Source: Rhodospirillaceae bacterium
GTDB taxonomy: Bacteria > Pseudomonadota > Alphaproteobacteria > UBA8366 > Aestuariispiraceae
Reading direction: 5' to 3'
NCBI GenBank assembly: GCA_002709955.1
Contig: PAQY01000007.1
Coordinates: 62,001 to 126,000, forward strand
Length of the DNA: 64,000 nt
The translations under genes and the position numbers were made by a program. The notes under the pieces were generated by a model that worked only from the letters and a program-made list of their open reading frames with translations, was not told where the DNA came from and did not search any database. Shown here one piece after another: positions 1 to 25,403 of this stretch (position 1 is the first letter of the stretch; each line of letters starts with the position of its first letter).

Positions 1-2
1 AA

Positions 3-95
3 GTTCTTTTAGAAATTTCCGCAGCACTAAAGAAAGGCGACTTAGAGTCCAATTTGGGTTGTCCGGTGATCCGTCCCGTCTTTTCCGTCCGTTAG
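3..95 (+). CDS. Possible C-terminal fragment of an upstream gene
   Basis: Reading from base 3, a frame stays open for 30 codons and ends at TAG 93-95, 24 bases before the MBOAT start. The translated tail mixes hydrophobic and charged residues in a way that would suit a protein C-terminus, but it is too short to assign to a family. A second frame is also open across the same bases to about 132, so this is a weak call. If real, the gene begins left of the window and would be co-directional with the acyltransferase genes. Confidence 0.2.
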   Translation, partial: VLLEISAALKKGDLESNLGCPVIRPVFSVR

Positions 96-119
96 GCTGC
101 AAAAAAAGGCATATTCAAG

Positions 120-1655: not shown

Positions 1656-1692
1656 TGTCGCCCCCATTTGCTTTGCGCGAGGTCGTACAACC

Positions 1693-3978: not shown

Positions 3979-4076
3979 TGGCCAAAAAACAATATGAATG
4001 GCAAGCGCTAGAGCTGGCGGTTGGTGGTTTTTTCTGCTGTAAGCAGCTCATGATCTCAAGGAACTAGGGAAAATTT

Positions 4077-7882: not shown

Positions 7883-7920
7883 TTTGTCGCGTATCTGCGC
7901 CTTAACGAGCGGAAAAAACT

Positions 7921-8556: not shown

Positions 8557-9314
8557 TGACATCACCGGTTCGTATTATTCCGTCGCTCTTGTTGTCCGGT
8601 GATCGGCTTGTAAAAGGGGTTGGGTATAAAGACTATCGTGACGCTGGCTCCCCGGCATCATCGGCTCGAATTTATGACGCTCAGGGCGCCGACGAGCTGT
8701 CGTTTCTAGATATTGACGCTTCGAAGAAGGGAAATCCACCAAAGCTGGATATCCTGAAAGCGGTTGCGGCAGAATGTGCGACACCACTTACATTTGGGGG
8801 CGGAATCAATACGTTGGAACTCGCCTCCGCCGCTATTGCGGGTGGCGCAGATAAAGTTTCGATGACAACAACGGCGTTTGAAAACCCAACACTAATCACG
8901 CAAGTTGCAGAGCGGTTTGGGCGGCAGGCATGCATGGTTGGTGTTGATGTCTTTGAAGATGGCAATCGACTGGCCTTTTACGATCACCGTAGGGATGAGT
9001 GCACATCTGCTTCGGTTGAGGAATGGATACTGGAAGCGCAACGACTCGGAGCCGGTGAGATACGAATCTCATTCGTGAACCGTGAAGGCCGACGATCTGG
9101 ATTTCCTATAGATCATATGCGCGCGCTTCGTAAGCTTATATCGGTGCCGATGATTATCGAGGGCGGTGCCGGAAACTTGGATGATGTCGATGCCGCATTT
9201 GATGTCGAGATTGATGGCCTAATCCTAGGAACAATGCTGGTTTTTTCAGACAATAATATCGTTCAGATCAAGCGTCATCTGGAGGCCAGAAAGCGCACAA
9301 TTCGACCATGGTAA
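8556..9314 (+). CDS. hisF: HisF-like ammonia-channelling subunit (glycan type)
   Basis: This 252-residue TIM-barrel protein is HisF-like but not a histidine enzyme. Genuine HisF has a catalytic Asp in the N-terminal IIPCLD block; here the block reads RIIPSLLLSGDRLVKG, placing Leu12 at that position, as in Pseudomonas HisF2-type proteins. The later VGVDV block keeps its Asp. The role inferred from the family is to receive ammonia from the HisH subunit and hand it to the WbpG-type enzyme. The start at 8556 overlaps the HisH stop; a GTG or ATG further upstream would add only a few unconserved residues. The end overlaps the GNAT gene by 7 bp. Confidence 0.82.
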   Translation: MTSPVRIIPSLLLSGDRLVKGVGYKDYRDAGSPASSARIYDAQGADELSFLDIDASKKGNPPKLDILKAVAAECATPLTFGGGINTLELASAAIAGGADKVSMTTTAFENPTLITQVAERFGRQACMVGVDVFEDGNRLAFYDHRRDECTSASVEEWILEAQRLGAGEIRISFVNREGRRSGFPIDHMRALRKLISVPMIIEGGAGNLDDVDAAFDVEIDGLILGTMLVFSDNNIVQIKRHLEARKRTIRPW

Positions 9315-9862
9315 CACCTTATGAAGTTGAACCGATTCAGTCTGAGCGATTAATTCTGCGTATTCTGACTGAAAGTGATGCAAGCCAAGCTTATATGAAC
9401 TGGATGAACGATCCAGAAATTGTCCGTTACCTCGAGGTTCGGTTTCGCTCCTGGACTCAGGAAGAAATTAGGGACGACATTACGCGCTTCGCCAATTCTG
9501 GTGTGTTTTTGTTTGGAATGTTCCTTCGTAAAGCTTCCGGTGAGGGTGAAGGACCGCATATTGGGAATATTAGAATAGGACCGGTGATTGCACGACACAG
9601 TCGCGCTGGTATTGGCATTATGGTCGGAGACCGGGGGTCTTGGGGAAAAGGATTTGCGACAGAAGCAATCCAAGCGGTTACCCAGTTTGGTTTGAAGAAA
9701 TTGGGGTTACAGAAGGTTGTTGCCGGTGTTTATGAACCCAATTTCGGATCTACGAAGGCGTTCCAGAAAGCAGGCTTTGTGATAGAGGCGATATTACCTA
9801 ACTATTGGCAGTCGGGTTCTGAGCGTGTTGGAGAAGTGCTTTTGGGGTATGATCCAGAATAG
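9308..9862 (+). CDS. GNAT family N-acetyltransferase (RimJ/RimL type)
   Basis: This 184-residue GNAT protein is expected to acetylate an amine, in this setting the amino group of a nucleotide amino sugar, the role of PseH or LegH-type enzymes. The opening ERLILRILTESDASQ is typical of the RimJ/RimL branch; GDRGSWGKGFATEAI (about 109-123) is the acetyl-CoA pyrophosphate-binding loop; GVYEPNFGSTKAFQKAGF is the conserved C-terminal block. It overlaps hisF by 7 bp, so it is translated with the amidotransferase genes. Direct action on a sugar is inferred from context. Confidence 0.75.
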   Translation: MVTPYEVEPIQSERLILRILTESDASQAYMNWMNDPEIVRYLEVRFRSWTQEEIRDDITRFANSGVFLFGMFLRKASGEGEGPHIGNIRIGPVIARHSRAGIGIMVGDRGSWGKGFATEAIQAVTQFGLKKLGLQKVVAGVYEPNFGSTKAFQKAGFVIEAILPNYWQSGSERVGEVLLGYDPE

Positions 9863-9909
9863 CGCTCGTTTGATGTTTCGACTGAGGATATTTGGGAGCT
9901 TAGCTCACC

Positions 9910-10974
9910 GTGAAAAGCATTGACTCAAGGAAGTCCATCCGTTTTGGCATTGTTCGAAAGATCGCTGTCATAGGCGGCAGTCGATTGATGGTGCAAACAG
10001 CTGAAATGATGCGTGGATACGGGGTCGATGTAGTTTTCGTTGTCGCCCCGCGCTATGCAGCAATTGGATTTGGGCCAAAGGGCGAGACCCTGTCGGAGGT
10101 AGCACAAGCCCTTGGTGCCGATCTAATATGTATAGAGGATATCCGCAAGGACGGGCAGGCGATTGCGACCTGTGGGGCCGATATGGCATTATGCTTCGGA
10201 CCTGCTTGGGTGTTTCCTGATGAGGTTATCGCAGGGTTTCCAAAGGGCATGTATAATTACAATGCCATTCCTCAGCCATACTATGTCGGAGGTGCGCATC
10301 ATAGTTGGCAGGCGATGAATGCGGACTTTCGAGGGGGGTGTGTGGTACAGGCTATCGGTCCAGAAGTTGATCGGGGCCCGATCCTGAAGTCGGAATTCTA
10401 TAGTTTTCCTGAAACGGTCGCGACACCAATAGAGTATTCACAGGTTAAGGATACACATTCCTTAACCTTTATTAAAAAGTTTCTTTTGGAACTTTTTTCA
10501 GACGCAGCGTTCGAGCCTGAACACTATGACACGTGGAACGCCAAACGACTCTATTTTCCGCGTATTATTGGTAAAATCCATGGGTGGATCGATTGGCGAT
10601 GGTCCGCGGATCACATCGTTCGGTTCGCCAATGCCTTCGGGGCTCCGTATGATGGCGCGCGGACCTATGTTAACGGCAGGGTAGTGCGATTGGCGCAGGT
10701 CTCGCTGCTGCCTGTCGATGATAACCTGACGCTGCATCCGTTTTGCGCGGGATTGGTTGTTCGGTCGGAAGCTAAAAGAGTAATTGTTGCAACACTGACA
10801 GGATGTATCGCGGTGGGTTCTGTAGCGAGCGATGAGCCGCATCAGGATGCGTTGGAAGGGGTACGGGACGGCACGCGCTTCTATACTCCTTCGGAGGTTT
10901 TGGATAGAGCAATGCGAAGTTCCGTTCAGGTTCTACCAAATGGGAATCTTCAAATTAGAGATCCGGAAAAATGA
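9910..10974 (+). CDS. Formyltransferase-fold protein with altered catalytic triad
   Basis: This 354-residue protein has the order of a methionyl-tRNA/sugar formyltransferase: an N-terminal Rossmann-like half, a core with D154-RGPIL, and a smaller C-terminal domain. Canonical members carry Asn-x-His followed by SLLP, then Asp. Here the block reads NYNAIP (116-121), so the His is replaced by Asn118 and the loop is two residues shorter, while Asp154 is kept; H130 and H131 follow at an unusual place. It may transfer formyl or another one-carbon unit to a sugar amine by a changed mechanism, or bind without catalysis. GTG is the start, with GGGAG about 12 bases upstream. It overlaps the next gene by 4 bp (ATGA). 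Confidence 0.65.
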   Translation: MKSIDSRKSIRFGIVRKIAVIGGSRLMVQTAEMMRGYGVDVVFVVAPRYAAIGFGPKGETLSEVAQALGADLICIEDIRKDGQAIATCGADMALCFGPAWVFPDEVIAGFPKGMYNYNAIPQPYYVGGAHHSWQAMNADFRGGCVVQAIGPEVDRGPILKSEFYSFPETVATPIEYSQVKDTHSLTFIKKFLLELFSDAAFEPEHYDTWNAKRLYFPRIIGKIHGWIDWRWSADHIVRFANAFGAPYDGARTYVNGRVVRLAQVSLLPVDDNLTLHPFCAGLVVRSEAKRVIVATLTGCIAVGSVASDEPHQDALEGVRDGTRFYTPSEVLDRAMRSSVQVLPNGNLQIRDPEK

Positions 10975-12290
10975 GAAAAATTCTGGACATTATAGAGGCT
11001 CTCTATCCCTTCTCCTACTCAATCGTTGGATCGGGAAATGATGCAGCTGTATCTGTTTTTCAGTCATTTGCAGCTTTTGAAGTGTTCGAATATGCTTCTG
11101 GTATGGATGTAAACGGGTGGGTGATTCCTAAAGAGCATATTGTCCATACTGCACAAATCCTTCGCGATGGGAAGGTCGTCTATGATGGGACGATATCGCC
11201 GCTTGGTGTAATTGCGCAATCGATATCGTTTGAGGGAACGGTTAGCCTTGAAACCTTGCTGGCGCATTGCCACGTGGATCCGATTAACACGAATGGTGTT
11301 CCGTATCATTGGCAACAACTCTATGGAAAAGGTCCTGTTGATTGGGGGTTCTGTATGCCCCAGGCTGTGCGTGATGCTTTAGTGCCTGGGGACTATCAGA
11401 TCGTTTTGAAAACGGAATTTGTTCCTGGAACAATGAAAGTTCTAGTCGCAACGTTGCCAGGCAGAACATCAGAAACGATACTGTTGAACGGCCATAATTG
11501 TCACCCTTATCAAGCCAATGATGATATTTCAGGCTGTGCAGTGGCGATTGCCGCCCTGCAAAAGCTCGCGGCACTTCCGGATCGACGTTATAGTTATTCC
11601 GTGATGATTGCTCCCGAACTTCTGGGTCCGATATTCTGGCTTAATTTTGATCGCCCTGCAGGTATGTCACTGTTCGGTGCGATGCTGTTTAAATCTGTTG
11701 GCAATGATGCCCCGCTGCGTTTGCAGGAGAGTTGGAACGGTCAGGCCAAGTTAGATTTAGCTGCCCATGTGGCGATGCAAGCGCAATATGGTGAGTATCA
11801 GTCTGGGCCATACCGCACAGTCTATGGGAATGATGAAATTGTGTTTGAGGCGCCGGGTTTCGAAATTCCCTGTATTTCCTTTACGCGATCACCCTTCAAA
11901 CAGTATCACAGTAATCTTGATACGCCTGATACGTTGTCTGAAACTGCATTGCAGGAAACGTTGAGCGTTGTGCTTTCAACAATCTCGTATTTGGAGAGGG
12001 ATTCCTTCTACCATACCACTTTTAAAGGAGTGCCTTGCCTTTCCAGTCCTCGTTATGACTTGTATCGTCCGGTGACGGATCGGCGATTGGGTGCGGACGC
12101 TCAAACTGCGCTGAGGCGCCGTTGGAACCTTATGATGAATCGTTTACCCAGAGATTTGAATGAAGGGAACTCGGCTCTGGATTTGGCGGCGCGCTATGAA
12201 TTGCCTTTTGAAGAAGTGTCGAATTACATCGGTGAATGGGTCGAAAAAGGCCTGTTGCAGCCAACAGAAAAACACGGACCCCAGGAGTAA
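10971..12290 (+). CDS. DUF4910/DUF2172 aminopeptidase-like zinc hydrolase
   Basis: This 439-residue protein resembles the DUF4910 (older name DUF2172) aminopeptidase-like family, whose fold is related to M28 zinc peptidases and which is often found in glycan loci without a proven role. GHNCHPYQANDD (174-185) gives a His and Asp pair typical of a two-metal centre, APELLGP further on would supply an acidic ligand, and QYHSNLDTPDTL near residue 310 gives a late His. The last 70 or so residues look like a winged helix. It is translationally coupled to the formyltransferase-fold gene by a 4-bp overlap. Hydrolysis of an amide on a glycan or nucleotide sugar is a guess from context. Confidence 0.7.
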   Translation: MRKILDIIEALYPFSYSIVGSGNDAAVSVFQSFAAFEVFEYASGMDVNGWVIPKEHIVHTAQILRDGKVVYDGTISPLGVIAQSISFEGTVSLETLLAHCHVDPINTNGVPYHWQQLYGKGPVDWGFCMPQAVRDALVPGDYQIVLKTEFVPGTMKVLVATLPGRTSETILLNGHNCHPYQANDDISGCAVAIAALQKLAALPDRRYSYSVMIAPELLGPIFWLNFDRPAGMSLFGAMLFKSVGNDAPLRLQESWNGQAKLDLAAHVAMQAQYGEYQSGPYRTVYGNDEIVFEAPGFEIPCISFTRSPFKQYHSNLDTPDTLSETALQETLSVVLSTISYLERDSFYHTTFKGVPCLSSPRYDLYRPVTDRRLGADAQTALRRRWNLMMNRLPRDLNEGNSALDLAARYELPFEEVSNYIGEWVEKGLLQPTEKHGPQE

Positions 12291-12295
12291 CGGGA

Positions 12296-13297
12296 ATGAC
12301 GATGCGCACTGCGGAAATTATTGCGGAATGTGAGATCAATCATAACGGCGATGTCGAGCTTGGGAAGAAGTTAATCTCAGCGGCAAAAGAGGCTGGTGCC
12401 AGTTGCGTGAAATTTCAATGCATGGTGCCAACCGCTTTCATAGCACCCGGTTCTTCGTTTATGCCTTTGTTTGAAAATGTGGCTTTGCCTGTCGAGGCCT
12501 TTGTCGAGCTAAAGCGCCACAGTGACTCAATTGGTATGCCGATATTCTCCACGGCGGTTGATCGCGAAGGTTTAGCCATGATCCGGGATATTGGCTTCGA
12601 CCGGGTAAAGATTGGCTCAACCAACATCACCCATATTGATCTGCTGGAGGAAATCGCGGAACTGAAGCGCCCAGTGTATCTTTCGACCGGCGCGTCCAAT
12701 CTGAGTGAGATCGATCGTGCACTGTCAATTCTGTCCAGAGGGACGGATGACCTCACATTATTCCATTGTACTGCTTTGTATCCGGCACCAAACGATCGAT
12801 TAAACATGTCTGCAATGGATACGCTAAAGAATGCCTTCCCAGGAGTGCCGATCGCCTATTCGGATCACAGCGTTGGTACCACTGCAGCGGTTATAGCTGT
12901 TTCGAAAGGTGCTGTAGCGCTCGAAAAGCATTTCACCCTAGATCATGATCTGCCGGGACCTGACCACAAATTCTCCGCGGATCCAGAAGAAATGGCAGCC
13001 TATGTGGCGACGGTTAGAATCGCTGAAAGCATGTTGGGAAGTCCTGCAAAAGTGCCTGCCGTCGGAGAGGATGCGATCCGTCGGGCCGGACGTCGATATT
13101 TGACAGCTTTAACGGATATTGCAGTTGGAGAAAAGATAACCAATGAGAATACTCGCCCGCGTAGGATTATGGTTGAAGGCATTGATCTGTCACAATTGAT
13201 TGAGGCATGTGATGTCCCCCGCGTGAAAGGATGGACCGCGCAAAAATCGATTGGCGCGAATGCGTCTATAGCCTGGTCGGATCTCGCGGGCGCCTAA
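12296..13297 (+). CDS. neuB: NeuB-family nonulosonic acid synthase (copy 1)
   Basis: This 333-residue enzyme is predicted to condense phosphoenolpyruvate with a six-carbon amino sugar to make a nine-carbon nonulosonic acid. It has a TIM barrel (AECEINHNG near the N-terminus, STGASNLSEI, YSDHS, LEKHFTLDHDLPGPDHK) and a C-terminal SAF/antifreeze-like domain. The histidines in SDHS and EKHF, which bind the catalytic metal in characterised NeuB, are both present. ATG 12296 follows AGGAG at the end of the preceding gene. It is one of three synthase domains in the window; which sugar each makes cannot be told by eye. Confidence 0.88.
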   Translation: MTMRTAEIIAECEINHNGDVELGKKLISAAKEAGASCVKFQCMVPTAFIAPGSSFMPLFENVALPVEAFVELKRHSDSIGMPIFSTAVDREGLAMIRDIGFDRVKIGSTNITHIDLLEEIAELKRPVYLSTGASNLSEIDRALSILSRGTDDLTLFHCTALYPAPNDRLNMSAMDTLKNAFPGVPIAYSDHSVGTTAAVIAVSKGAVALEKHFTLDHDLPGPDHKFSADPEEMAAYVATVRIAESMLGSPAKVPAVGEDAIRRAGRRYLTALTDIAVGEKITNENTRPRRIMVEGIDLSQLIEACDVPRVKGWTAQKSIGANASIAWSDLAGA

Positions 13298-13313
13298 CCC
13301 ATTGGTCGATCGG

Positions 13314-14141
13314 ATGATCATTTTTGGGACAGGGGCAGGGCGTTGTGGAACAATGAGTCTGTCAAATTGGCTGAACTCTGAGGTTGATACAGTATGCTTG
13401 CATGAAGGCAAGGAGCGAAAACTGGAGGAACCGGGCGGTCAGAAATTGCCGTTTCTGACGCTCCAGAACTTTCTGGCCTATAAGGACCCTAAACAGGCAG
13501 AGCCGCTTTTCCGTGAGTTGCGTCAGATCATGCAACAAGTCGCTAACGACTGCGACGTTAAGTGGTTTGGAGACATTGCCTATAACTATGCACCATTCGT
13601 TAAGGTTATTCCGACGGTGTTTCCGGAAGCAAAGCTAGTCGTTATCGTGCGCGACGGGCGGTCTTTCGTTCGGTCGGTTATAACAAATGAAGTTCCTGAC
13701 CCAACGCCTGTCGGATGGTTAGATCCGGAACGACCAATGTCACAGACAGAGCGATTTATAGCACTTGGGCGGCTTCGTCCGGTAATTGGCCACGATGTTT
13801 ATGAGCATTGGAGCCAATTTGATCTTGTGCAGAAAAATGCCTGGCTCTGGGCTGAAACGTATCGCGTCATCATGGATGGTTTGGAAAGTTGGAGTCCAGA
13901 TCAGTATCTCGTCGTGCGTTTTGAAGAGTTATTTGCTGATGTAGACAAGGGGTACGATAAAATTCGGCGCTTCATAGGACTGGATCACCCAATTAGTGAT
14001 GTCACGCATGGCTTGTTGCATACTCGGATAAATCATCGAGAGACTCGAATTTTGCCTCATTTTGATGATTGGAGCAATGTTCAAAAAGATGGATTTTGGG
14101 AACAAGCAACACCAATGATGAAGCGTCTTGGATATCTTTGA
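13314..14141 (+). CDS. PAPS-dependent sulfotransferase family protein
   Basis: This protein of about 275 residues has the two marks of a cytosolic-type sulfotransferase: FGTGAGRCGTMSL (about 4-16), the 5'-phosphosulfate loop, and VVIVRDGRSFVRSV (about 107-120), the 3'-phosphate site. It would move sulfate from PAPS to a hydroxyl of a sugar or lipid. A TTG at 13302 would add four residues; no convincing ribosome-binding site decides between them. It lies between the first synthase and the second amidotransferase gene, so a sulfated surface sugar is plausible but unproven. Confidence 0.75.
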   Translation: MIIFGTGAGRCGTMSLSNWLNSEVDTVCLHEGKERKLEEPGGQKLPFLTLQNFLAYKDPKQAEPLFRELRQIMQQVANDCDVKWFGDIAYNYAPFVKVIPTVFPEAKLVVIVRDGRSFVRSVITNEVPDPTPVGWLDPERPMSQTERFIALGRLRPVIGHDVYEHWSQFDLVQKNAWLWAETYRVIMDGLESWSPDQYLVVRFEELFADVDKGYDKIRRFIGLDHPISDVTHGLLHTRINHRETRILPHFDDWSNVQKDGFWEQATPMMKRLGYL

Positions 14142-14172
14142 AAATGGCGTTGCGGCGCAAGGAGTAATTCAT

Positions 14173-15366
14173 ATGAGCAATATTCTGGTTTGCAGTAAGT
14201 GCCTACTTCCGGAGACCGTTGAGTCCTTGGTGATTGGCGATGATGGCGTTTGTTCGGTTTGCAAGAATATTAGTTACAAGCATACGTCAATCAATTGGGA
14301 GGAGCGCGGGCACCGTTTCGACGAGATCTTAGACGCGCATCGGGGGCAGGGCCAGTATGATTGCGTTGTCCCATTCTCAGGCGGAAAGGATTCCACTTAC
14401 ACGCTTTGGTATCTGGTCAAAGTGAAGAAACTGAAACCCCTTGTGGTTCGGTTTGATCACGGGTTTTTCCGACCCACTTTGCAGGACAATGCGCTAAAGA
14501 CTTTTCGACGCCTAGGGGTTGATGTTCATAACTTTACACCGAATTTCCAGGTTGTTCGGAAATTGATGTATGAAAGCCTTCGTCGAAAAGGGGATTTCTG
14601 TTGGCATTGTCATACTGGTATTTTTGCCTATCCGATGTGGGTTTCTATTCGGTATGAAACGCCCCTCGTTATCTGGGGAGAATCTGGTGCGGAATATTCA
14701 AGTTGGTACAGCTTTGAAGAACAGGAAGAGATGGATCAACGACGGTTCGATCTAAAGATCAATCGCGGTATCGCAGCCGAAGACATGATCGGTATGTTGG
14801 ATAATTCAATTTCGGGTTATCCGGTCACCTCCCGGGATCTGATCCCCTTCAGCTATCCGCCACGTCGTGACCTCAAAAAGGCGGGTACTAAGTCGGTTTT
14901 TCTGGGGCGATACATCCCTTGGGACGTGAAGTACAATTATGCCACGATTCAGAAAGAGCTGGATTGGAAGGGAGAACAAGTCGAAGGCGTTCCGCCGCAG
15001 TATGATTACGAGAAAATCGAATGCTTCATGCAGGGCGTGCGGGATTACATAAAATTTCTGAAGCGCGGTTACGCGCGCACGGCGCATTTGGCCTCTATTG
15101 ATATTCGAAATGGTCGTCTTACGCGGGAAGAAGGTCAAAAGCTTGTAGATCAATACGATGGAAAGCGGCCATATGCTTTGGATCTTTTTTTGGATTATCT
15201 TGGGATAACCGAAGAGCATTTTCATGATTTGGTAAAAATGCATGAGGTGCGCCCGCACACAACACCAAGCTGTGGCGAGTGTCAGCGTTGTCAGGTTGTA
15301 CCTTGGGATGCTGAAATGTGGCCAAAAATTGGTAGTATTCAGCGAACCACTCCTGAAATTCTTTGA
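14173..15366 (+). CDS. wbpG: N-acetyl sugar amidotransferase, WbpG/PseA family (copy 2)
   Basis: This 397-residue protein is a close paralogue of the gene at 6695, with more than half of the residues identical by eye along the whole length. It keeps C7/C10, C27/C30, the PP-loop SGGKDS (69-74) and the C-terminal CGECQRC. AAGGAG precedes the ATG by 8 bases. No second HisH/HisF pair is seen, so the two copies may share the pair at 7921-9314, with each acting on a different sugar or position. In the characterised family the reaction replaces an acetyl oxygen by an imino group, giving acetamidino. Confidence 0.87.
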   Translation: MSNILVCSKCLLPETVESLVIGDDGVCSVCKNISYKHTSINWEERGHRFDEILDAHRGQGQYDCVVPFSGGKDSTYTLWYLVKVKKLKPLVVRFDHGFFRPTLQDNALKTFRRLGVDVHNFTPNFQVVRKLMYESLRRKGDFCWHCHTGIFAYPMWVSIRYETPLVIWGESGAEYSSWYSFEEQEEMDQRRFDLKINRGIAAEDMIGMLDNSISGYPVTSRDLIPFSYPPRRDLKKAGTKSVFLGRYIPWDVKYNYATIQKELDWKGEQVEGVPPQYDYEKIECFMQGVRDYIKFLKRGYARTAHLASIDIRNGRLTREEGQKLVDQYDGKRPYALDLFLDYLGITEEHFHDLVKMHEVRPHTTPSCGECQRCQVVPWDAEMWPKIGSIQRTTPEIL

Positions 15367-15415: not shown

Positions 15416-16498
15416 ATGATGATGAAAAATCTTCAACAAGCTCAAATTGGTAAACACACCATTGGTGCAGGATATCCAGCTTTCTTAGTGTTTGAAGCAG
15501 GTCCAACTCATACTGGAGTTGAGAGTGCGAAGAGCTTGGCCAAGGCGGCGAAGGACTCTGGAGCTCATGCGGTTAAATTTCAGATGACGAACCCCTATCG
15601 CTTGGTAGCCGATCGCCGCCAAATGTTTGATTATAAGGTTCTAACGGACCGCGCATCTGGGGCGATCGAGGCCGTTAGCGAACCCCTGTTTGATATCTTG
15701 AAACGTCGTTACCTAACCCATGATCAATGGGCTGAGGTTAAGTCTTATTGTGACGAAATTGATATTTGTATGTATGCGACGGTCGGTTATCTTGAAGACC
15801 TGAATCACTTGGTAGATATTGGCTGTCAGGCCATCAAGATTTCCTCAAGTGACGTGAATCACATTCCGATGCTTCGTGCTGCAGCGAAGACCGGTCTTAA
15901 CGTGCAGATTGATACCGGTAACGCAAAGCTGGGTGAGGTAGAATCTGCGGTTGATGAGCTTGTTGCGCATGGTTGCGAGAATATCATAATCCATCATTGC
16001 CCAAGTGGATATCCCGCGCGTCTGGATGGTATCAATCTGCGCATATTGAAGACTCTGCAATCAATGTTTCCTGTGCCGGTCGCGTTTTCAGATCACTCTC
16101 CTGGATGGGATATGGATATCGCTGCCATTGCTCTTGGTGCAAGCATGATTGAGAAAACTATCACACATGACCGCACCACGCGTTCGGCGGAACATATGTT
16201 TTCTTTGGAACCTAAGGATGCGATGCGATTTGTGACAGTGATGCGTGAAATCCAGCAAGGCCTGGGGTCTGCGCGAAGAATATTTTCTCAGGAAGAAGAT
16301 GCAGGTCGAACACGTTTGCGCCGGTCAATGCATCTGCGAACAAATTTACCGGCGGGGCACATTGTTCGCCTATCGGATATTGAATTTCGTCGCCCTGGAT
16401 TCGGTATTCCGGCATCTGATTGGGATAAAGTGAACGGTAAAAAACTGCGAGTTGCCCTAGATGAAGATCACCGGTTGGACTGGGCAGATTTTGAATGA
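15416..16498 (+). CDS. neuB: Divergent NeuB-family synthase (copy 2) lacking one metal histidine
   Basis: This 360-residue protein has the NeuB barrel and SAF domain layout, with KFQMTNPYRL, FSDHSPGW (SDH at 225-227) and a C-terminal RRSMHLRTNLPAGH block that opens the SAF domain. It departs at key points: the usual AEIGINHNG block reads FEAGPTHTG, STG reads DTG, and the EKHFT block reads IEKTITHD (246-252), so the second metal-binding His is Thr248. The clade may use another ligand, such as H251, or a different aldehyde substrate. Three consecutive ATG codons open the gene. The stop overlaps the LpxD-like start by 4 bp, which links this synthase to the aminoacyl module that follows. Confidence 0.8.
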   Translation: MMMKNLQQAQIGKHTIGAGYPAFLVFEAGPTHTGVESAKSLAKAAKDSGAHAVKFQMTNPYRLVADRRQMFDYKVLTDRASGAIEAVSEPLFDILKRRYLTHDQWAEVKSYCDEIDICMYATVGYLEDLNHLVDIGCQAIKISSSDVNHIPMLRAAAKTGLNVQIDTGNAKLGEVESAVDELVAHGCENIIIHHCPSGYPARLDGINLRILKTLQSMFPVPVAFSDHSPGWDMDIAAIALGASMIEKTITHDRTTRSAEHMFSLEPKDAMRFVTVMREIQQGLGSARRIFSQEEDAGRTRLRRSMHLRTNLPAGHIVRLSDIEFRRPGFGIPASDWDKVNGKKLRVALDEDHRLDWADFE

Positions 16499-17493
16499 CA
16501 GTGAAGGATCACGACAGGTTTGATGAAGAGAGTCCGGTTTGGCAACCAAGTGATCTATGGGGGACGGGCTTCCCACGTTTGATTGAGTCACCGATAACTG
16601 CGGCCAAGATTATCGAACTGGCTGGTCTGTCGGAAGCCAGTTTAACCGGACCTCCAGATCAAATTGTGACAGGTGTTGCCGCTCTCAGCGAAGGGAGAGT
16701 CGGGACTTTTGCGTTCTGTAATCGACGCGGCGCAAAAGCCAGCGAGATGATTTCGGAGGGGGCCGCCACGTTGATCGCAGTCTATGAAGGTGTCCAAGAG
16801 ATCAAGGGCTATTCATTCATTTGTACTGATGACCCTAAACATGTCTTTGTCCGTGTCGTATCCCAACTTTTTCCAGATACGTTAAGCCCACATCCGTTTC
16901 CTCCCGGCGCGACGATAGCATCGGAAGAGCGGTTCCCCGGGGTTATCTTTGGTGCAAATACGGTAATCCATCCTGATGTGGAAATTGGTGCGGGGTCCCA
17001 TATCGGGAATAATGTGGTGATCTATGCTGGGACTAGGATCGGTCAGAATTGCATAATCTCCGATGGTTGTATCATTGGAGGTAACGGCATTTCTTTTACT
17101 AAGAATGTCGATGGTGGATGGGAGACATTTCCACATTTGGGACGTGTTCTAATCGGTGACTTTGTGCGCATCGGTCAGAATAGTGCGATTCAGCGTGGTT
17201 TGTTGAAGAATACCGTGCTTGAGGACGGTGTTAAGACAGGTGCCTTGGTGAATATCGCACATAATTGCTATCTTGGGCGTGAATCATGGCTTTCCGCAGG
17301 CGTTACTTTATGCGGGAGCATTGTCATGGAACCGGATGTCTTCGTTGGGGCCGGCGCAGTTCTGAACAATCATCTAAGAATTGGTCAGGCATCAAAAATT
17401 GCTGCGGCCGCTTTTGTCGTGCGCGATGTGGTGGCAAGAACATGCGTGTTGGGCTCCCCTGCAAAACCGGTCCCATTCTTGAGCAGATTTTAG
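16495..17493 (+). CDS. LpxD-like left-handed beta-helix N-acyltransferase
   Basis: This 332-residue protein matches UDP-3-O-acylglucosamine N-acyltransferase (LpxD) in layout: a small N-terminal domain (about 30-130), then hexapeptide repeats (about 145-305) such as PDVEIGAGSHIGNNV. KTGALVNIAHNCYLG contains H256, equivalent to the LpxD catalytic histidine. LpxD enzymes take the acyl group from acyl-ACP and place it on a sugar amine. Housekeeping lipid A synthesis would use a copy beside fabZ and lpxA; this one sits in a glycan operon 27 bases before an amino acid:carrier-protein ligase and a carrier protein. I infer that it transfers a carrier-bound aminoacyl or acyl group to an amino sugar. 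Confidence 0.82.
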   Translation: MTVKDHDRFDEESPVWQPSDLWGTGFPRLIESPITAAKIIELAGLSEASLTGPPDQIVTGVAALSEGRVGTFAFCNRRGAKASEMISEGAATLIAVYEGVQEIKGYSFICTDDPKHVFVRVVSQLFPDTLSPHPFPPGATIASEERFPGVIFGANTVIHPDVEIGAGSHIGNNVVIYAGTRIGQNCIISDGCIIGGNGISFTKNVDGGWETFPHLGRVLIGDFVRIGQNSAIQRGLLKNTVLEDGVKTGALVNIAHNCYLGRESWLSAGVTLCGSIVMEPDVFVGAGAVLNNHLRIGQASKIAAAAFVVRDVVARTCVLGSPAKPVPFLSRF

Positions 17494-17520
17494 TAGATGC
17501 TTTGAATAAGGAGAGTTCCG

Positions 17521-18669
17521 ATGGAGACGATTAAAGTTCCCATAAATGCGATCTGGGATGTGGATTTGAAGAAGAAGGTATTGGAACGCATTTACTATGC
17601 GGTTCCTGGTCTTGCAGATGTGGTGTTTCAATCTGAGGGACTGACGTTGAAAGTTACTGAAGCGGCGCAAGTGGATCTGGCTGGTGTCGGGATTTATGTT
17701 CAGGATCTGATAAAAAACACAAAGAAAGTGAAACCCAAAGTTCTTGAACAGGCAACAGTTGATCCGACATTCGTCGAGAATCCTTTTGAGGCTTTGAAAG
17801 CGCAATATGAAGTTTTCGAGACCCATGATGGGTCTTTTGTTCTAAGTGGCAATTTTCTGCGCCGTATGACGATAATTGATACGCTTATCCGGCAACATGC
17901 AGCAACTATTGGAGCCGATGAAATGGCTGTTCCAACCTTGCTGGCGACCAAGAGTCTGGTTGCAAACGGGTATCTACATGACTTTCCCCATCATGCTTTG
18001 TTTGCCGCGCCGGTGAAGCATGACCTTCGAGCCTTGCAAGCTGTAGCGGATATCCGTCAGGTTTCATCTGAGGATTTTTATCAATTCAATGATTATCTCG
18101 GGGCACCCGATCAAATACTGGCTCCCACGGTTTGTTATCATTGCTTCGAAGCGTTTAGGGACCGTCAGTTTGATAAGCCGGAGGTTCTCATTACGGCTTT
18201 GGGTCAGTGCCACCGATTTGAAAGCAAGAATCTGAAAGACCTGAGACGGCTTAAGCATTTCCGAATGCGCGAATTGGTTTATTTCGGCGATGAGGCATCC
18301 GTGCAGCGCCGCTTAAACGCAAGCGTTGACTGGATTCTTGAAATCATGCGGAATTGGAACGTTCAGTTCCGCCTTGTTACGGCTAATGATCCGTTTTTCC
18401 TCGCCGAATCGGATCGAAAATCAGCCTATCAGACAGCCTTTCATTTGAAGCGGGAACTGCAATTGTATCTTCCATTTGCTGATCAATGGCTTGCGGTTGG
18501 ATCGTTTAACCACCATCAGTCCGTTCTTGCCGAAAAATACGGGTTCAAATTGCAGAATGTTGAAAAGTCACAATCTGGCTGTATAGGCTTTGGATTTGAA
18601 CGTTTTACCTATGCCCTTTATTGTCAATTTGGCTTTCTGCCGACCGCATGGCCTGTGGCGCTAAAGTGA
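17521..18669 (+). CDS. Amino acid:[carrier protein] ligase, class II aaRS-like
   Basis: This 382-residue protein looks like the amino acid:carrier-protein ligases known from Bradyrhizobium (Bll0957 type), which are seryl-tRNA-synthetase-like catalytic cores that charge the phosphopantetheine arm of a small carrier protein instead of tRNA. HRFESKNLKDLRRLKHF (231-247) is class II motif 2 and GFGFERF (356-362) motif 3. C205, E251 and C354 sit at spacings of 46 and 103, close to the zinc ligands Cys131, Glu176 and Cys279 as I recall them for Bll0957. There is no tRNA-binding coiled coil; the first 100 residues are an unassigned extra domain. AAGGAGAG precedes the ATG. The amino acid cannot be read off. 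Confidence 0.82.
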   Translation: METIKVPINAIWDVDLKKKVLERIYYAVPGLADVVFQSEGLTLKVTEAAQVDLAGVGIYVQDLIKNTKKVKPKVLEQATVDPTFVENPFEALKAQYEVFETHDGSFVLSGNFLRRMTIIDTLIRQHAATIGADEMAVPTLLATKSLVANGYLHDFPHHALFAAPVKHDLRALQAVADIRQVSSEDFYQFNDYLGAPDQILAPTVCYHCFEAFRDRQFDKPEVLITALGQCHRFESKNLKDLRRLKHFRMRELVYFGDEASVQRRLNASVDWILEIMRNWNVQFRLVTANDPFFLAESDRKSAYQTAFHLKRELQLYLPFADQWLAVGSFNHHQSVLAEKYGFKLQNVEKSQSGCIGFGFERFTYALYCQFGFLPTAWPVALK

Positions 18670-18711
18670 TCTTACTGACTAAGAAACCGCATTGCTGGGC
18701 GAGGAAAATCC

Positions 18712-18960
18712 ATGAGTGATCTCTTATTTAAACAAATTGAAACAGTATTCTGTGAAACGTTTGGTCAAAACTATGCAGGGAAGATAGACCTGAAAACGAC
18801 GATGGAGGATATTCCAGAATGGGACTCTTACAGTTTTCTCGATTTCACAATGGCGTTGGAAGATCATTTTGACGTACAGTTCGATGTCGATGAATTGGCA
18901 CAAATGTTTAAGTTAAGTACGGTTTATGACTTAGTAAAAGCCAAGCGGCTGAAGGAATAG
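18712..18960 (+). CDS. Acyl/aminoacyl carrier protein
   Basis: This 82-residue protein is an acidic four-helix carrier protein. PEWDSYSFLDF (35-45) contains the phosphopantetheine attachment Ser39 in the D-S motif, with Tyr where Leu is common. It starts 42 bases after the amino acid:carrier-protein ligase and is therefore the likely partner that is charged with an amino acid through a thioester. An activating phosphopantetheinyl transferase is not seen in the window and would come from elsewhere. Confidence 0.88.
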   Translation: MSDLLFKQIETVFCETFGQNYAGKIDLKTTMEDIPEWDSYSFLDFTMALEDHFDVQFDVDELAQMFKLSTVYDLVKAKRLKE

Positions 18961-18969
18961 GCGCGGGCT

Positions 18970-19968
18970 ATGCCCCCCAAGATCGCGATCCTCGCCGATG
19001 CTCGCCCCGTAAGCGGTGGTGGGCATGTTATGCGCTGTTGGTATCTGTCCAAAGCGTTGCGGTATCTGGGAGCAGAGGTATTGCTCGGTCTAGTTGGATC
19101 AGCGAACGGTGTATTTTCTCATTTTAAAGAACATACCGGCAAGGCGGTTGTCGTTTCCCATCTCGAGGATCAGCCGACAGTGCACCTAGACTGGCTGAAA
19201 TATCATTCACCAGACTGCCTAGTGATAGACAGTTACTCGGTAGGTCAGGAGGAATGCCGTGCCTATCTGGATGTTTCTCCTCATGCGTATAGATTTTATG
19301 ATCAGCGGGGAAATGAAGATTTGGGGATGGGGGCCCTATATCCTCATGACCCAAGGTTTCGAGGTATTTTAGATCCAGATTGGCTGGGGTCGAGACAGAT
19401 GGCTTTCGCTCGCCGTGAGCACGGATACATCGATCATGTGCTGATTTCCTTTGGAATGGTAGATCGTCCAGGTAGCAGTTTTTTGGCGCTTAACGCACTT
19501 TCACGCTATCGCCAAGAAACGCACGGTAAGTTTGAAATTCACCTTGTCGTCGGGAAGGCAAATTTGCAGTCGGAGGCGTTGGAATTGGCAGGTCGGGAGT
19601 GGGGCGTGCGCGTATATCGCGATCTGACGGATATGGGATTCTTGTACGCCCTTTGCGATGCAGCGATAGGGGCTCCTGGTGTGTCCGGATGGGAACGCTG
19701 TGCATATGCAATACCATCAATTTTGATTCAGAACGCAGAAAATCAGGCGTCATCTCGTGACGTGTTGATTAAGGCTGGCGCTGCTTGGGGAGGAACACAG
19801 GCTTTGAGCGTGACTGAGGCTGATCTTTATTCTGATATAAAGCAGAATATGTTTGCCTCAGAACGCTATCTTGCCGCGATGCGGGCGGCTGATGCTCTGT
19901 GTGATGGGCAGGGAGTGTTTCGACTCGCGGCGGCAGTGTTGGGGGATAAAGGAGTATTGTCATGTTAA
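18970..19968 (+). CDS. pseG: PseG/LegG-like UDP-sugar hydrolase
   Basis: This 332-residue GT-B-fold protein resembles PseG, which removes UDP from a 2,4-diacetamido-trideoxy sugar before the synthase step. GGGHVMRC (16-23) holds the catalytic-type His19; ISFGMVD (about 158-164) aligns with the usual SFGG-D block but with Met-Val in place of Gly-x; GVSGWERCAYAIPSI matches the C-terminal G-S-WE--xxLPS block. Only one such hydrolase is present for three synthases. AAGGAA at the end of the carrier-protein gene is the likely ribosome-binding site. The end overlaps the deacetylase gene by 7 bp. Confidence 0.8.
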   Translation: MPPKIAILADARPVSGGGHVMRCWYLSKALRYLGAEVLLGLVGSANGVFSHFKEHTGKAVVVSHLEDQPTVHLDWLKYHSPDCLVIDSYSVGQEECRAYLDVSPHAYRFYDQRGNEDLGMGALYPHDPRFRGILDPDWLGSRQMAFARREHGYIDHVLISFGMVDRPGSSFLALNALSRYRQETHGKFEIHLVVGKANLQSEALELAGREWGVRVYRDLTDMGFLYALCDAAIGAPGVSGWERCAYAIPSILIQNAENQASSRDVLIKAGAAWGGTQALSVTEADLYSDIKQNMFASERYLAAMRAADALCDGQGVFRLAAAVLGDKGVLSC

Positions 19969-20645
19969 ACAGCGATACCCGCCTATTGGTACTTGCCGCG
20001 CATCCTGATGATGAGGTCTTGATGGCCGGCGGTGTTCTATCGAAACTGCGCGTGATCGGCGGTGCGGCGATGGTTGCTATCGCTGCGACGGGCGCGACGA
20101 GCCGCAATCCTGTTTCCAACGATGCAGCAATCCGCATGCTAGAGAAAGAGACACAGGATGCAATGACCTGTCTGGGGTGGTCGGATATTAGAGTTGCCCG
20201 TGGTGGGTTTCCTGATAATCAAATGGATACGGTGGCCCTGCTAGAGATCATTAAATGGGTTGAGTCTGTCATACGTGACTTTCGCCCAACCTTGGTCATT
20301 ACGCATTGTTTGGGATGCACCAATATTGATCACAGGCTTTGCTTCGAGGCCGCGACTGTGGCTGTCCGCCCATCGTCGGAGCAACATATAGAACTCTGGA
20401 CCGCAGAGACGCCATCCAGTTCAGGTTATCGACGACCTTGGAACTTTGAACCATCACTTTATGTCTCTCTTAAGGAGGATGAGATAAAGGCGAAGATCGC
20501 AGCCATGCAGTGTTACGCGAGTGAGTCTCGTGTTACGCCCAACCCACGTTCTCCAGAAATGCTGAATGCTTTGTCACATGTTCGGGGATCTGAGGCGGGT
20601 TGTTCCTTTGCCGAAGCCTTCATGCTGATCAGAGGGTTCGCGTGA
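19962..20645 (+). CDS. PIG-L/LmbE family N-deacetylase
   Basis: This 227-residue zinc-dependent deacetylase has the family signature AAHPDDE near residues 12-18 and a second metal His in NIDHRLCFEA. PIG-L proteins remove N-acetyl groups from GlcNAc-type sugars. Here removal of an acetyl would free an amine for the formyl, acyl, aminoacyl or amidino groups that neighbouring enzymes could add. It overlaps the PseG-like gene by 7 bp and its TGA overlaps the next ATG by 1 bp, so it is coupled to a formyltransferase-fold protein. Confidence 0.87.
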   Translation: MLNSDTRLLVLAAHPDDEVLMAGGVLSKLRVIGGAAMVAIAATGATSRNPVSNDAAIRMLEKETQDAMTCLGWSDIRVARGGFPDNQMDTVALLEIIKWVESVIRDFRPTLVITHCLGCTNIDHRLCFEAATVAVRPSSEQHIELWTAETPSSSGYRRPWNFEPSLYVSLKEDEIKAKIAAMQCYASESRVTPNPRSPEMLNALSHVRGSEAGCSFAEAFMLIRGFA

Positions 20646-22461: not shown

Positions 22462-23157
22462 TTGAACTATGTTGCGCTGATTCCGGCTCGAAGCGGGTCA
22501 AAGGGAATTCCCGGCAAAAACATCCAAGTGATAGCTGGAAAACCACTGATCGCATGGTCCATTGTACAGGCTTTAGCCTGCGCACGTATAGACCGCACAT
22601 ATGTTAGCACGGATGGTGCTGAGATCGCTCAAATCGCGAGAGAGTTTGGCGCTGAAGTTCCTTTCATGCGGCCAGAGGAATTGAGTAGCGATGTAGCATC
22701 AACTGAAAGCGCAATGCTGCATTTTTTGGACTGGCTGGAAACACAGGACGGCTACACCAAAGGTACCTCAATAGTTTTGTTGCAGCCAACATCGCCAGTT
22801 CGAGTTCCTGGTGCTTTGGAATCCGCTATTCAGGAATATGAGTTAAAACGAGCGGATAGCCTGGTTTCTGTTGTTGAACGGCACCCTTTCTTCTGGAAAG
22901 AGACCGCCGATGGCCTAGCTGAGGCCCAGTATGATTATCACCAAAGACCTCGCAGGCAAGATCTGAAGGCCACGGATAAATTCTATGAAGAGAATGGCTC
23001 AATTTATATTACGCGCTGTTCAATTCTGCGTCAGAACCAGAACCGTTTGGGCGGTTCCATCGCTTTTTTTCCAATGAGTTTGCGTGAAAGTGTTGATATT
23101 GACAGTGCGTCTGATCTGGCGTTAGTCGAAGCGCTACTCTCAAAGAGGTCTGTATGA
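22462..23157 (+). CDS. neuA: CMP-nonulosonic acid cytidylyltransferase (NeuA/PseF-like)
   Basis: This 231-residue nucleotidyltransferase activates a nonulosonic acid as its CMP sugar. The opening IPARSGSKGIPGKN (7-20) is the family CTP-binding loop; LLQPTSPVR and ENGSIYITR follow as expected. The start is TTG at 22462, since the conserved N-terminus begins there and GGAG lies 9 bases upstream. It is the only such activating enzyme seen, so all synthase products in the locus may pass through it. The end overlaps the fused synthase gene by 4 bp (ATGA). Confidence 0.88.
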   Translation: MNYVALIPARSGSKGIPGKNIQVIAGKPLIAWSIVQALACARIDRTYVSTDGAEIAQIAREFGAEVPFMRPEELSSDVASTESAMLHFLDWLETQDGYTKGTSIVLLQPTSPVRVPGALESAIQEYELKRADSLVSVVERHPFFWKETADGLAEAQYDYHQRPRRQDLKATDKFYEENGSIYITRCSILRQNQNRLGGSIAFFPMSLRESVDIDSASDLALVEALLSKRSV

Positions 23158-25403
23158 TTATTGATAAAGATATTTCATCCTATGTTGTTCAATATGATGA
23201 TTCTTTAGGCGTAGCTCTGAAGCGGATTTCTGAAAATAAAGCGGGTTTTGTTCTCTGCCTTGACCGGAATGGGGTATTGGAAGGCATTATCTCGGATGGC
23301 GATTTTCGCCGTTGGGCGATGAAGCGTGAGACCATCGGTATGGATGAGGCTGTACGCAGCGTCGCTAACACCAGGATGGTCACCGCACGTAACAGTGACT
23401 CGGCTGACGTAATTTCACGGTACTTCTCTGATCGCGTCCGATTCGTGCCCTTGCTTGACGCGCGTGGGCGCTTGGTCGCGGTTGCACGTCCGGGAATTCC
23501 TGGAATTAAGATTAATGGACGCAGTATTGGTCCAAATGATCCTAGCTATTTGATTGCTGAAATCGGCATCAATCACAATGGGTCTTTGGAAAATGCAAAG
23601 TCTTTGGTGGATGCTGCAGTCAAAGCAGGTGCTGATTGTGCAAAATTTCAGATGCGGCAAATGTCGGCCCTTTATCGAAACGCTGGGGCAGCGGATGACC
23701 CGCGAGAAGATCTTGGCGCACAATATACCCTAGATGTTCTTTCCCGGTCTGCTTTGGACAACCAAAGCATGATAGAGGTTTTTGAGTATTGCCATGAAAA
23801 AGGCATTCAGCCGTTATGTACGCCTTGGGAAGAGGAAAGCCTGCGCGTGCTGGAAGATTATGGCATGGCCGCTTATAAAGTGGCCTCAGCAGATCTTACG
23901 AACCATTCTTTGCTGCGAGCTCTCATTGAAACTGGAAAACCGCTAATTCTCTCGACTGGAATGTCTCGGGAACAGGAAATTATTGAAGCCGTGACCTTAT
24001 TGCAGGAAAACGGTGCTGCCTATGTTCTGCTACATTGCAACTCTACCTATCCGGCGCCTCTGAAGGATGTCAATCTGCGCTACTTAAAGCGCTTGCAACA
24101 GCTTGGCGGGTCGGTTGTCGGATATTCTGGGCATGAGCGTGGTTGGGCTGTTCCGATTGCCGCAGTCGCGATGGGTGCCAAAGTGATTGAGAAGCACTTT
24201 ACGCTGGACAAGACTTTACCTGGCAATGACCACAAGGTGAGTCTTCTGCCCCAGGAGTTCCAGGATATGGTGCAGGCTATCCGCTCAATTGAGGAAGCGA
24301 TGGGCAGCGACGATACCCGGGAGCCGTCCCAAGGGGAGCGGATGAATCGCGAGACATTGGCAAAGAGCCTTATGGCGAGAGTCGAAATTAAGGCAGGTGA
24401 TGAACTGCATGCTGGCTTGATTGATGTAAAAAGCCCAGGTACGGGGCTTCAACCAAACAGACTACCAGAGCTATTCGGTCTTAAGGCCAAGCGAGACTTT
24501 CAGCCAGGAGATTTTTTCTTCACCAGTGATTTGGATGAGGCGGAGATCACTGACTATGCATTTCAGTTTCGTAGACCTTGGGGCTTGCCAGTTCGCTATC
24601 ATGATTGGGAACGTCTTTATGGCCTCTCAAAGGGGATAGACTTTCTGGAATTTCATTTTTCGTTCAAGGATTTAGAGCGAGATCCGACGGAGTTTTTTAG
24701 CGGTCCGGTTGATTGCGGCCTGGTGACTCATAGTCCGGACCTATTCAACGGCGATCATTTGCTCAATTTGGCGGATCCGGATCCGGATTATCGCAAGCGC
24801 TCTTTGATGGAGTTGCAAAATGCAATTGATGTGACTCGGCGTCTTCGTGATTTTTTTAAAACCGATGCTGATACCTTCATCATAGCGAGTCTGGGGGGAT
24901 TCTCGAAGAACGCACCATTGCCTGTGCAGGCGCGGCCTGAACTGTATGACAGAGTGATGACCGGACTTTCGCAGCTCAATCTGGATGAGGTGGAACTGCT
25001 CCCTCAGACCTTGCCTCCATATCCTTGGTATTTCGGTGGTCAGCTTTTTTGCAATTTATTCGTCGATCCTGAGGATACGGCTCAGTTCTCAAAGGACTCC
25101 GGCTTCAGATTGTGCTTTGACGTATCCCACTCCAAACTTGCCTGCAATCACCGAAAAATCAGCTTTGCAGATTTTACTGATATCATTGCGCCGCATACAG
25201 CACATCTTCACATCGTTGATGCCGCCGGTGTTGATGGGGAGGGTTTGCAGATATCTGAGGGTGAAATTGATTTTGCCATGCTTGCACGGCAAGTTGATAA
25301 GCATTGTCCAGAGGCCAGTTTTATCCCGGAGATTTGGCAGGGGCATAAGAATGATGGTGAAGGATTTTGGATTGCGCTGTCACGGCTGAGGGAATGGTTT
25401 TGA
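23154..25403 (+). CDS. neuB: Fused CBS domain / NeuB synthase / sugar-isomerase-like TIM barrel
   Basis: This 749-residue protein joins three parts. Residues 1-110 look like a CBS pair, with GIISDGDFRR typical of nucleotide-sensing CBS domains. Residues about 120-460 are a full NeuB synthase plus SAF domain: AEIGINHNG (137-145), STGMSREQEI, YSGHERGW, and EKHFTLDKTLPGNDHK with both metal histidines. Residues about 475-749 resemble a xylose-isomerase-like or AP-endonuclease-2 TIM barrel, with CFDVSHSKLA and HLHIVDAAGVDGEG blocks typical of metal-binding barrels. A regulated synthase with a coupled isomerase or epimerase is inferred. It overlaps neuA by 4 bp and the next gene by 1 bp. Confidence 0.85.
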   Translation: MIIDKDISSYVVQYDDSLGVALKRISENKAGFVLCLDRNGVLEGIISDGDFRRWAMKRETIGMDEAVRSVANTRMVTARNSDSADVISRYFSDRVRFVPLLDARGRLVAVARPGIPGIKINGRSIGPNDPSYLIAEIGINHNGSLENAKSLVDAAVKAGADCAKFQMRQMSALYRNAGAADDPREDLGAQYTLDVLSRSALDNQSMIEVFEYCHEKGIQPLCTPWEEESLRVLEDYGMAAYKVASADLTNHSLLRALIETGKPLILSTGMSREQEIIEAVTLLQENGAAYVLLHCNSTYPAPLKDVNLRYLKRLQQLGGSVVGYSGHERGWAVPIAAVAMGAKVIEKHFTLDKTLPGNDHKVSLLPQEFQDMVQAIRSIEEAMGSDDTREPSQGERMNRETLAKSLMARVEIKAGDELHAGLIDVKSPGTGLQPNRLPELFGLKAKRDFQPGDFFFTSDLDEAEITDYAFQFRRPWGLPVRYHDWERLYGLSKGIDFLEFHFSFKDLERDPTEFFSGPVDCGLVTHSPDLFNGDHLLNLADPDPDYRKRSLMELQNAIDVTRRLRDFFKTDADTFIIASLGGFSKNAPLPVQARPELYDRVMTGLSQLNLDEVELLPQTLPPYPWYFGGQLFCNLFVDPEDTAQFSKDSGFRLCFDVSHSKLACNHRKISFADFTDIIAPHTAHLHIVDAAGVDGEGLQISEGEIDFAMLARQVDKHCPEASFIPEIWQGHKNDGEGFWIALSRLREWF

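Follow-up and report, generated by a model that had tools for sequence, protein, structure and literature searches.

A class II synthetase-like ligase, a carrier protein and an LpxD-like acyltransferase in a nonulosonic acid locus: a candidate aminoacyl-transfer module

The three genes and their products

Three adjacent genes for an LpxD-like acyltransferase, a relative of the amino acid:[carrier protein] ligases and a small carrier protein lie in a stretch of 64,000 nucleotides from a Rhodospirillaceae bacterium (assembly GCA_002709955.1, contig PAQY01000007.1, positions 62,001 to 126,000; G000:C6:62001-126000 in our numbering), hereafter the window. With moderate confidence, we favour the view that they form a cytoplasmic aminoacyl-transfer module within a pseudaminic-acid-type pathway, in which the LpxD-like enzyme N-aminoacylates a nonulosonic acid precursor. 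The genes are:

16495-17493, + strand: LpxD-like left-handed beta-helix N-acyltransferase, 332 amino acids; proposed aminoacyl transferase onto an amino sugar
17521-18669, + strand: relative of the class II aminoacyl-tRNA synthetase (aaRS)-like amino acid:[carrier protein] ligases, 382 amino acids, with an N-terminal extension of ~85 residues
18712-18960, + strand: carrier protein, 82 amino acids, with phosphopantetheine site Ser39

The original prediction, made from the sequence alone, had described this trio as contiguous, and the open reading frames (ORFs) at 16495-18960 confirm it: all three are on the + strand, with gaps of 27 bases between the LpxD-like and ligase genes and of 42 bases between the ligase and carrier genes. 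The stop codon of the preceding synthase gene, neuB2, overlaps the LpxD-like start as ATGA, and purine-rich stretches resembling ribosome-binding sites are visible by eye upstream of the ligase and carrier starts. From neuB2 on, the genes run LpxD-like, ligase, carrier, PseG-like and PIG-L deacetylase, and the trio takes the place in the operon at which one expects PseH or a similar N-acyltransferase.

The ligase exceeds the cut-off of Pfam tRNA-synt_2b (5.7e-8) and matches the NCBIfam model for amino acid--[acyl-carrier-protein] ligase (NF005479) at 7.8e-36, but its 123.6 bits fall short of the cut-off of 357, which places it as a relative within the wider family, outside that equivalog; among PDB sequences it matches Bll0957 at 2.3e-21. 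Cys205, Glu251 and Cys354, noted earlier along with motifs 2 and 3 and put forward as zinc ligands, are invariant in ligase alignments of 7, 6 and 10 sequences, as are Arg232/Glu234 and Glu360/Arg361, which we take to be motif 2 and motif 3, respectively. Structure prediction had been proposed as a check and, for the ligase alone, gave a model (pLDDT 82.8, pTM 0.80) with the class II aaRS core fold, which matches six Bll0957 entries, one of them engineered, at Z 28.7-29.3; the alignment to 4h2s (Bll0957 with carrier and AMP) covers 284 residues at Z 29.1 and rmsd 3.0. The best fold matches are atypical seryl-tRNA synthetases (SerRS; Z 30.4-31.6), including that of M. kandleri (3w3s; Z 31.5, rmsd 2.7, 307 aligned), where rows within 1 Z count as tied and a common fold is no proof of function. 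As the Bll0957 structure matches begin at ligase residue 85-86, the first ~85 residues constitute an extension.

The carrier passes Pfam PP-binding narrowly (21.7 bits against a cut-off of 20.8), and Asp38-Ser39 is invariant across eight carriers, which bears out its earlier identification as a carrier with Ser39. The third protein matches LpxD at 7e-56, under both LpxD cut-offs (TIGR01853, 189.5 versus 242.5 bits; NF002060, 185.5 versus 207 bits). Its His256, Asn257 and His293 occupy the columns of E. coli LpxD His239, Asn240 and His276, residues with a catalytic role, and are also kept in the best LpxD-like match of the class outside the bacterium's own genome (L178). The latter genome has another LpxD gene, adjoining LpxA (G000:C18), which makes the window gene a paralogue of a housekeeping LpxD; a role of the window gene in lipid A synthesis was set aside on this ground.

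Ligase relatives and two parallel loci

Relatives of the ligase are rare. They were matched in 2 of 144 related genomes and in 15 of 385 genomes of the class, very likely Alphaproteobacteria, own genome included in both counts, while single-protein searches returned no relative from a collection of 84,980 species (from which the own genome was possibly left out) or from viral contigs. A scan of the same 84,980 species with a three-sequence alignment, which relied on two short motifs and missed relatives lacking them, yielded 95 confirmed relatives, 80 of which were kept. Five of these lie outside Paenibacillaceae, in Hellea (L048), Parvularcula (L049), Pelagibacteraceae of the SAR11 group (L050 and L051) and Geminicoccaceae (L052); their ligases are 32-35% identical to the window ligase over the best segment. 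The ligase tree joins them to it at 93/95 support, just below the 95/80 mark, and carries warnings for long branches and, in the SAR11 rows, for letter make-up. A carrier gene or domain lies at most ~1 kb from the ligase in all five. Judged by sequence, the window ligase belongs to a rare clade distantly related to the amino acid:[carrier protein] ligases, and we regard amino acid loading onto the carrier as likely.

More distant relatives have other surroundings. Those in Streptomyces (25-30% identity) lie in nonribosomal peptide synthetase/polyketide synthase clusters, which presumably resemble aminomalonyl-acyl carrier protein (ACP) subclusters with a link to serine; at this level of identity they yield no prediction of amino acid specificity. 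A ligase match occurs in 93 plasmid records, seven of which were inspected, five of them annotated. On a Priestia plasmid (L042:8025-11226), a ligase relative stands beside a BtrH-domain gene, a carrier and an ATP-grasp gene. A viral origin of the ligase was considered and set aside, with one match (E 3e-24) among 50,697 phage records; MT835751.1:13479-14309, in an unannotated phage record from human faecal samples, encodes a 25% identical ligase relative.

Two sets of loci parallel the window. In both SAR11 loci, the ligase is divergent from a gene which encodes a weakly PseH-like GNAT-carrier fusion:

L051:7754-8641 and L050:4950-5828: GNAT-carrier fusion

The two fusions are 71% identical. 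Their N-terminal GNAT part is just over the Pfam Acetyltransf_3 cut-off and their C-terminal carrier domain has the site WDSLNH; the sole NCBIfam match of either is PseH (1.4e-5 and 1.7e-4; 25.2 and 21.7 bits, under the cut-off of 93.1). Against PDB sequences, the carrier part matches an acyl carrier protein at 8e-4 and the GNAT part reaches 0.01. Both loci contain a NeuB-like gene and a DegT-type aminotransferase; L051 adds a PseF-like gene, L050 a formyltransferase. As far as sequence goes, this fusion beside a ligase in nonulosonic acid loci is the most direct support for N-aminoacylation, counted as about one event since L050 and L051 come from one family.

The second parallel concerns the transferase. 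LpxD-like matches occur in 355 of the 385 class genomes, presumably mostly housekeeping LpxD, and nine neighbourhoods were taken from among the best of them. LpxA is nearby in five (L181, L182, L184, L185, L186), three are sugar loci (L178, L179, L183), and in L180 none of the searched genes matched except LpxD itself. L178 (21-5047) runs from a NeuB gene truncated by the contig end through an LpxD-like gene, one for an unassigned 204-residue protein, 3-ketoacyl-ACP synthase III (KAS III), carrier and two short unassigned ORFs to PIG-L; here a carrier-bound acyl group from KAS III is probably the donor, passed onto a nonulosonic acid. This row, one of the nine, indicates that an LpxD-like enzyme in a NeuB operon can have a carrier of its own and that the loader differs.

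L178 also bears on a different explanation, by which the window ligase would work alone, aminoacylating tRNA or forming amides, and the carrier would hold a separate acyl chain, destined for the LpxD-like enzyme. The genome of L178 (G107) has no ligase match, and the atypical SerRS fold match is as good as that to Bll0957. Against this, the carrier keeps within ~1 kb of the ligase in every clade relative and was found in 74 of 75 Paenibacillaceae loci, and the ~85 residues before the catalytic core leave too little room for a tRNA-binding domain like that of atypical SerRS. We consider a stand-alone ligase very improbable.

The surrounding sugar locus and competing explanations

Genes of the window which bear on the acceptor and on the remaining alternatives are as follows:

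120-1655, + strand: MBOAT whose C-terminus has the motif FLYFEF; a candidate for a Dlt-like route to the acceptor, though an ordinary O-acyltransferase is the more probable identity
1690-2904, + strand: SGNH-like protein paired with the MBOAT (by eye, a GSS motif and DxxH; no match in Pfam or NCBIfam)
4077-5105, + strand: PseB UDP-GlcNAc 4,6-dehydratase (490.3 bits, cut-off 407.75)
12290-13297, + strand: second NeuB-like synthase (NeuB1; listed ORF opens at 12236), 49% identical to the NeuB of L178
13302-14141, + strand: sulfotransferase-family protein
14170-15366, + strand: WbuX-like N-acetyl sugar amidotransferase, over cut-off
15416-16498, + strand: NeuB/PseI-like synthase (neuB2), under the NeuB and PseI cut-offs, overlapping the LpxD-like start
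18970-19968, + strand: PseG-like UDP-sugar hydrolase (TIGR03590 at 2.4e-28; 99.5 bits, under the cut-off of 153.55)
19962-20645, + strand: PIG-L family de-N-acetylase, which could free an amine for re-acylation

The placement of the trio in a nonulosonic acid operon, as first proposed, is upheld in that PseB and PseC, the latter ~3 kb upstream of the window, are both over their curated cut-offs, and that PseG- and NeuB-like genes flank the trio. PseG carries out the step after N-acylation in the pseudaminic route. The PseG-, PseI- and PseF-like genes are clear homologues, all under cut-offs, which does not settle the exact nonulosonic acid. Homologues of the PIG-L gene also occur in L178 and L183. 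We regard a glycan destination of the amino acid as likely.

The stretches 6704-9314 and 14170-15366 hold two WbuX-like amidotransferases (both over cut-off) and a glutamine amidotransferase/His_biosynth gene pair, a combination which suggests acetamidino groups on sugars. A 749-residue chain at 23154-25403 joins CBS, NeuB and SAF domains to a xylose-isomerase-like TIM barrel and is a third NeuB-like synthase of the locus, while a DUF4910/DUF2172/M28-peptidase-like protein is encoded at 10971-12290.

Several observations weigh against N-aminoacylation by the LpxD-like enzyme. An LpxD gene adjoins the ligase in one of 96 loci, the window alone (the window itself, 15 loci of class genomes and 80 from the scan, with flanks of up to ~10 kb, some shortened by contig ends), and none is annotated in the five annotated plasmid loci. 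The LpxD-like protein ends ~25 residues short of the E. coli LpxD C-terminus, and it is the C-terminal tail of the E. coli enzyme that helps ACP binding. Further, LpxD-like proteins are present in polysaccharide or glycan loci of haloarchaea, in which ACP is not expected, such that LpxD likeness alone does not imply an ACP-bound donor. A GNAT at 9308-9862 matches PseH weakly (8.9e-4; 19.4 bits, cut-off 93.1) and is outscored there by aminoglycoside acetyltransferase models; given this match, the LpxD-like enzyme need not be the sole N-acyltransferase of the locus. The predicted structure of the SAR11 fusion is unusable (pLDDT 38.9), leaving that case to the sequence. The sulfotransferase has no place in the scheme. 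Lastly, 75 of the 80 scan loci have an SGNH gene, 73 of them also an MBOAT, and no sugar N-acyltransferase. The proposal that a carrier-bound amino acid is placed on an amino sugar is thus sustained in part: the SAR11 fusion loci and L178 support a glycan use, whereas ligase and LpxD stand together, among the 96 loci, in the window alone, and relatives often keep company with SGNH and MBOAT genes.

Those 75 loci, all of Paenibacillaceae (L053-L127; for example, L053:8302-12132), introduce the principal alternative, which is Dlt-like export. Here, ligase and carrier would act as DltA and DltC, the MBOAT (120-1655) and SGNH (1690-2904) proteins would pass the aminoacyl group to an exported glycan, and the LpxD-like enzyme would serve the sugar pathway as an acetyl- or acyltransferase with no part in this export. 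According to the accessible text of PMC12148441, DltB takes carrier-bound D-Ala and hands it to the tyrosine of an FXYXXF motif in the microprotein DltX, and other MBOATs carry FXYXXF at their own C-terminus. The order carrier-ligase-SGNH-MBOAT is found in 72 of the 75 loci, two of the others being without a detected MBOAT and one without a detected carrier, and an ORF ending in FXYXXF occupies the gap between SGNH and MBOAT in all 73 loci with both genes. Such an ORF ends nowhere else in the 1,351,238 bases of Paenibacillaceae loci. The count is tied to the actual gap (a looser scan of the 75 loci at 8000-13500 gave at least one ORF in 71 and none in four) and, as the loci are related, does not represent 73 independent events. 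From its sequence, this operon looks like a complete Dlt-type system with a class II aaRS-like loader.

The association extends to Alphaproteobacteria. The ligase is paired with an MBOAT (Pfam) in L023, L024, L025 and L048, and with an SGNH-like gene in L023, L025 and L048, not in L024 (GSS motif by eye, no Pfam match). In L052:10002-11381, carrier and SGNH-like domains form one chain (its portion beyond residue 170 served as SGNH query), with no membrane segment visible by eye between them; L049 has an SGNH-like gene and possibly a DltX-like ORF. The window, too, has an MBOAT/SGNH pair (120-2904), which, unlike that of the Paenibacillaceae loci, is not beside the ligase and carrier and instead lies ~14 kb off, beyond a minus-strand gene. 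No DltX-like ORF was found at window positions 1-4000, the extent of the scan, besides the C-terminus of the MBOAT itself. Ligase-linked MBOATs of L023, L024 and L025 also have the fused C-terminal motif, so that FLYFEF counts to some degree for Dlt-like export and does not settle the role of the window MBOAT. MBOATs like that of the window are present in 36 of 59 relatives, counting the own genome. Eleven of them, taken from other genomes in which the ligase search gave no match, share 37-48% identity with the window MBOAT, as against 26-34% for eight ligase-linked MBOATs (that of L025 compared without its first 90 residues); a filter for rows over 400 residues took none out. With 6 of 18 inner branches well supported, the MBOAT tree is poorly resolved, and the argument rests on these identity figures. 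Taken together, we judge Dlt-like export unlikely for the window.

The sulfotransferase (13302-14141), missing from the genes listed in the original prediction, recurs with the ligase. Its homologues in L048 (50% identity), L052 (48%) and L049 (41%) all stand beside ligase and carrier, and 8 of the 385 class genomes, among them the own genome, have a match. Outside the own genome, the best class match by E-value (29% identity, 7.4e-29) lies in L187:5039-9857, in a row of sulfotransferase, carrier, DltA-like adenylation enzyme (AMP-binding 1e-58; DltA model 9.6e-69, under cut-off), SGNH-like gene and MBOAT. This row suggests that the sulfotransferase goes with carrier-bound aminoacyl groups irrespective of the enzyme that loads them, and its presence with MBOAT/SGNH systems in L048 and L187 also counts for Dlt-like export. 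Sulfotransferases that act on carrier-bound chains are known (CurM), and sulfation of the carrier-bound amino acid by this enzyme is a guess; in that event the amino acid would first be modified, with a sulfated aminoacyl group on the glycan, or the precursor of a different acyl group, as the product. On the other side, the sulfotransferase was not found in the SAR11 and Paenibacillaceae ligase loci, and its match to solved sulfotransferases is short and insignificant (best E 0.16). We hold prior modification of this kind to be distinctly unlikely.

Proposed pathway and comparison with known systems

In the N-aminoacylation scheme that we prefer, the ligase would use ATP to activate an amino acid, as expected from its family, and load it as a thioester on the phosphopantetheine of carrier Ser39. 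The LpxD-like enzyme would then move the aminoacyl group to a free amine on a UDP-linked diamino sugar; this could be the 4-amine provided by PseB and PseC or one that the PIG-L deacetylase has exposed. The PseG-like enzyme would remove UDP and a NeuB would condense the N-aminoacyl sugar with phosphoenolpyruvate, yielding an amino-acid-bearing nonulosonic acid. What is seen directly is the order of the genes, the preserved catalytic residues, the fold family and comparable arrangements in other loci; the three steps themselves are inferred. Such a sugar has a precedent in Leg5Ac7AcAla, the aminoacyl nonulosonic acid of Vibrio vulnificus CMCP6, as given in the accessible text of PMC7371886; neither that text nor the literature searched accounts for installation of the amino acid in sugars of this type. 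The same literature (including the accessible portions of PMC10888616, PMC12930378 and PMC6594144, with subscription papers largely outside) describes neither the module nor an aaRS-like Dlt loader.

More broadly, class II aaRS-like ligases and small carriers may constitute an interchangeable unit which supplies aminoacyl groups for envelope glycans to several transferases: LpxD-like in the window, PseH-like and fused in SAR11, SGNH-fused in Geminicoccaceae, and of the DltB/DltX/DltD type in Paenibacillaceae. A sulfotransferase would sometimes act on the carrier, and the window product would be an N-aminoacyl, possibly sulfated, nonulosonic acid. We advance this generalization tentatively, as a serious possibility that stops a little short of probable. 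To our knowledge, the cellular role of amino acid:[carrier protein] ligases is unclear, the literature searched having yielded none, and the module would give a job to this enzyme family. The comparison offers testable envelope-glycan roles for these ligases; it points to amino acids placed on sialic-acid-like sugars without tRNA or coenzyme A (CoA), and to a Paenibacillaceae Dlt-type operon whose loader is an aaRS relative.

The closest known systems each share part of this arrangement. The Bll0957-type ligases (Bradyrhizobium; PDB 3mey/4h2s) have the same class II core and zinc triad, with a carrier next door, but the window ligase is 24-25% identical to them by structure alignment, bears its ~85-residue N-terminal extension, falls under the NF005479 cut-off and stands in a glycan context, unlike the Azospirillum relative, which adjoins an acyl-CoA dehydrogenase. 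Atypical (methanogenic) SerRS are the best fold matches, yet the window ligase has a shorter N-terminus and is far under SerRS cut-offs (NF002120, 100.1 versus 611 bits; TIGR00415, 58.5 versus 489.55 bits). The LpxD-like protein has the beta-helix repeats and His/Asn/His columns of LpxD (UDP-3-O-acylglucosamine N-acyltransferase), and differs in its scores, in the lack of the C-terminal tail and in coexisting with a second LpxD gene beside LpxA. PseH, whose operon place the trio occupies, N-acylates a UDP-linked 4-amino sugar, as is proposed here, but draws on acetyl-CoA, where the window would employ a carrier-bound amino acid. In butirosin side-chain transfer, a carrier-bound amino acid is likewise passed onto an amino-sugar amine, by way of the BtrI carrier, the BtrH transferase and an ATP-grasp loader, and a BtrH-domain gene stands beside the related Priestia ligase; butirosin, however, is an antibiotic and not an envelope glycan. 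Finally, Dlt D-alanylation, in the accessible text of PMC12148441, also places an amino acid on a carrier and then on an envelope polymer; the window differs in having a class II aaRS-like loader instead of DltA, and a proposed cytoplasmic acyltransferase in place of DltB, DltX and DltD.

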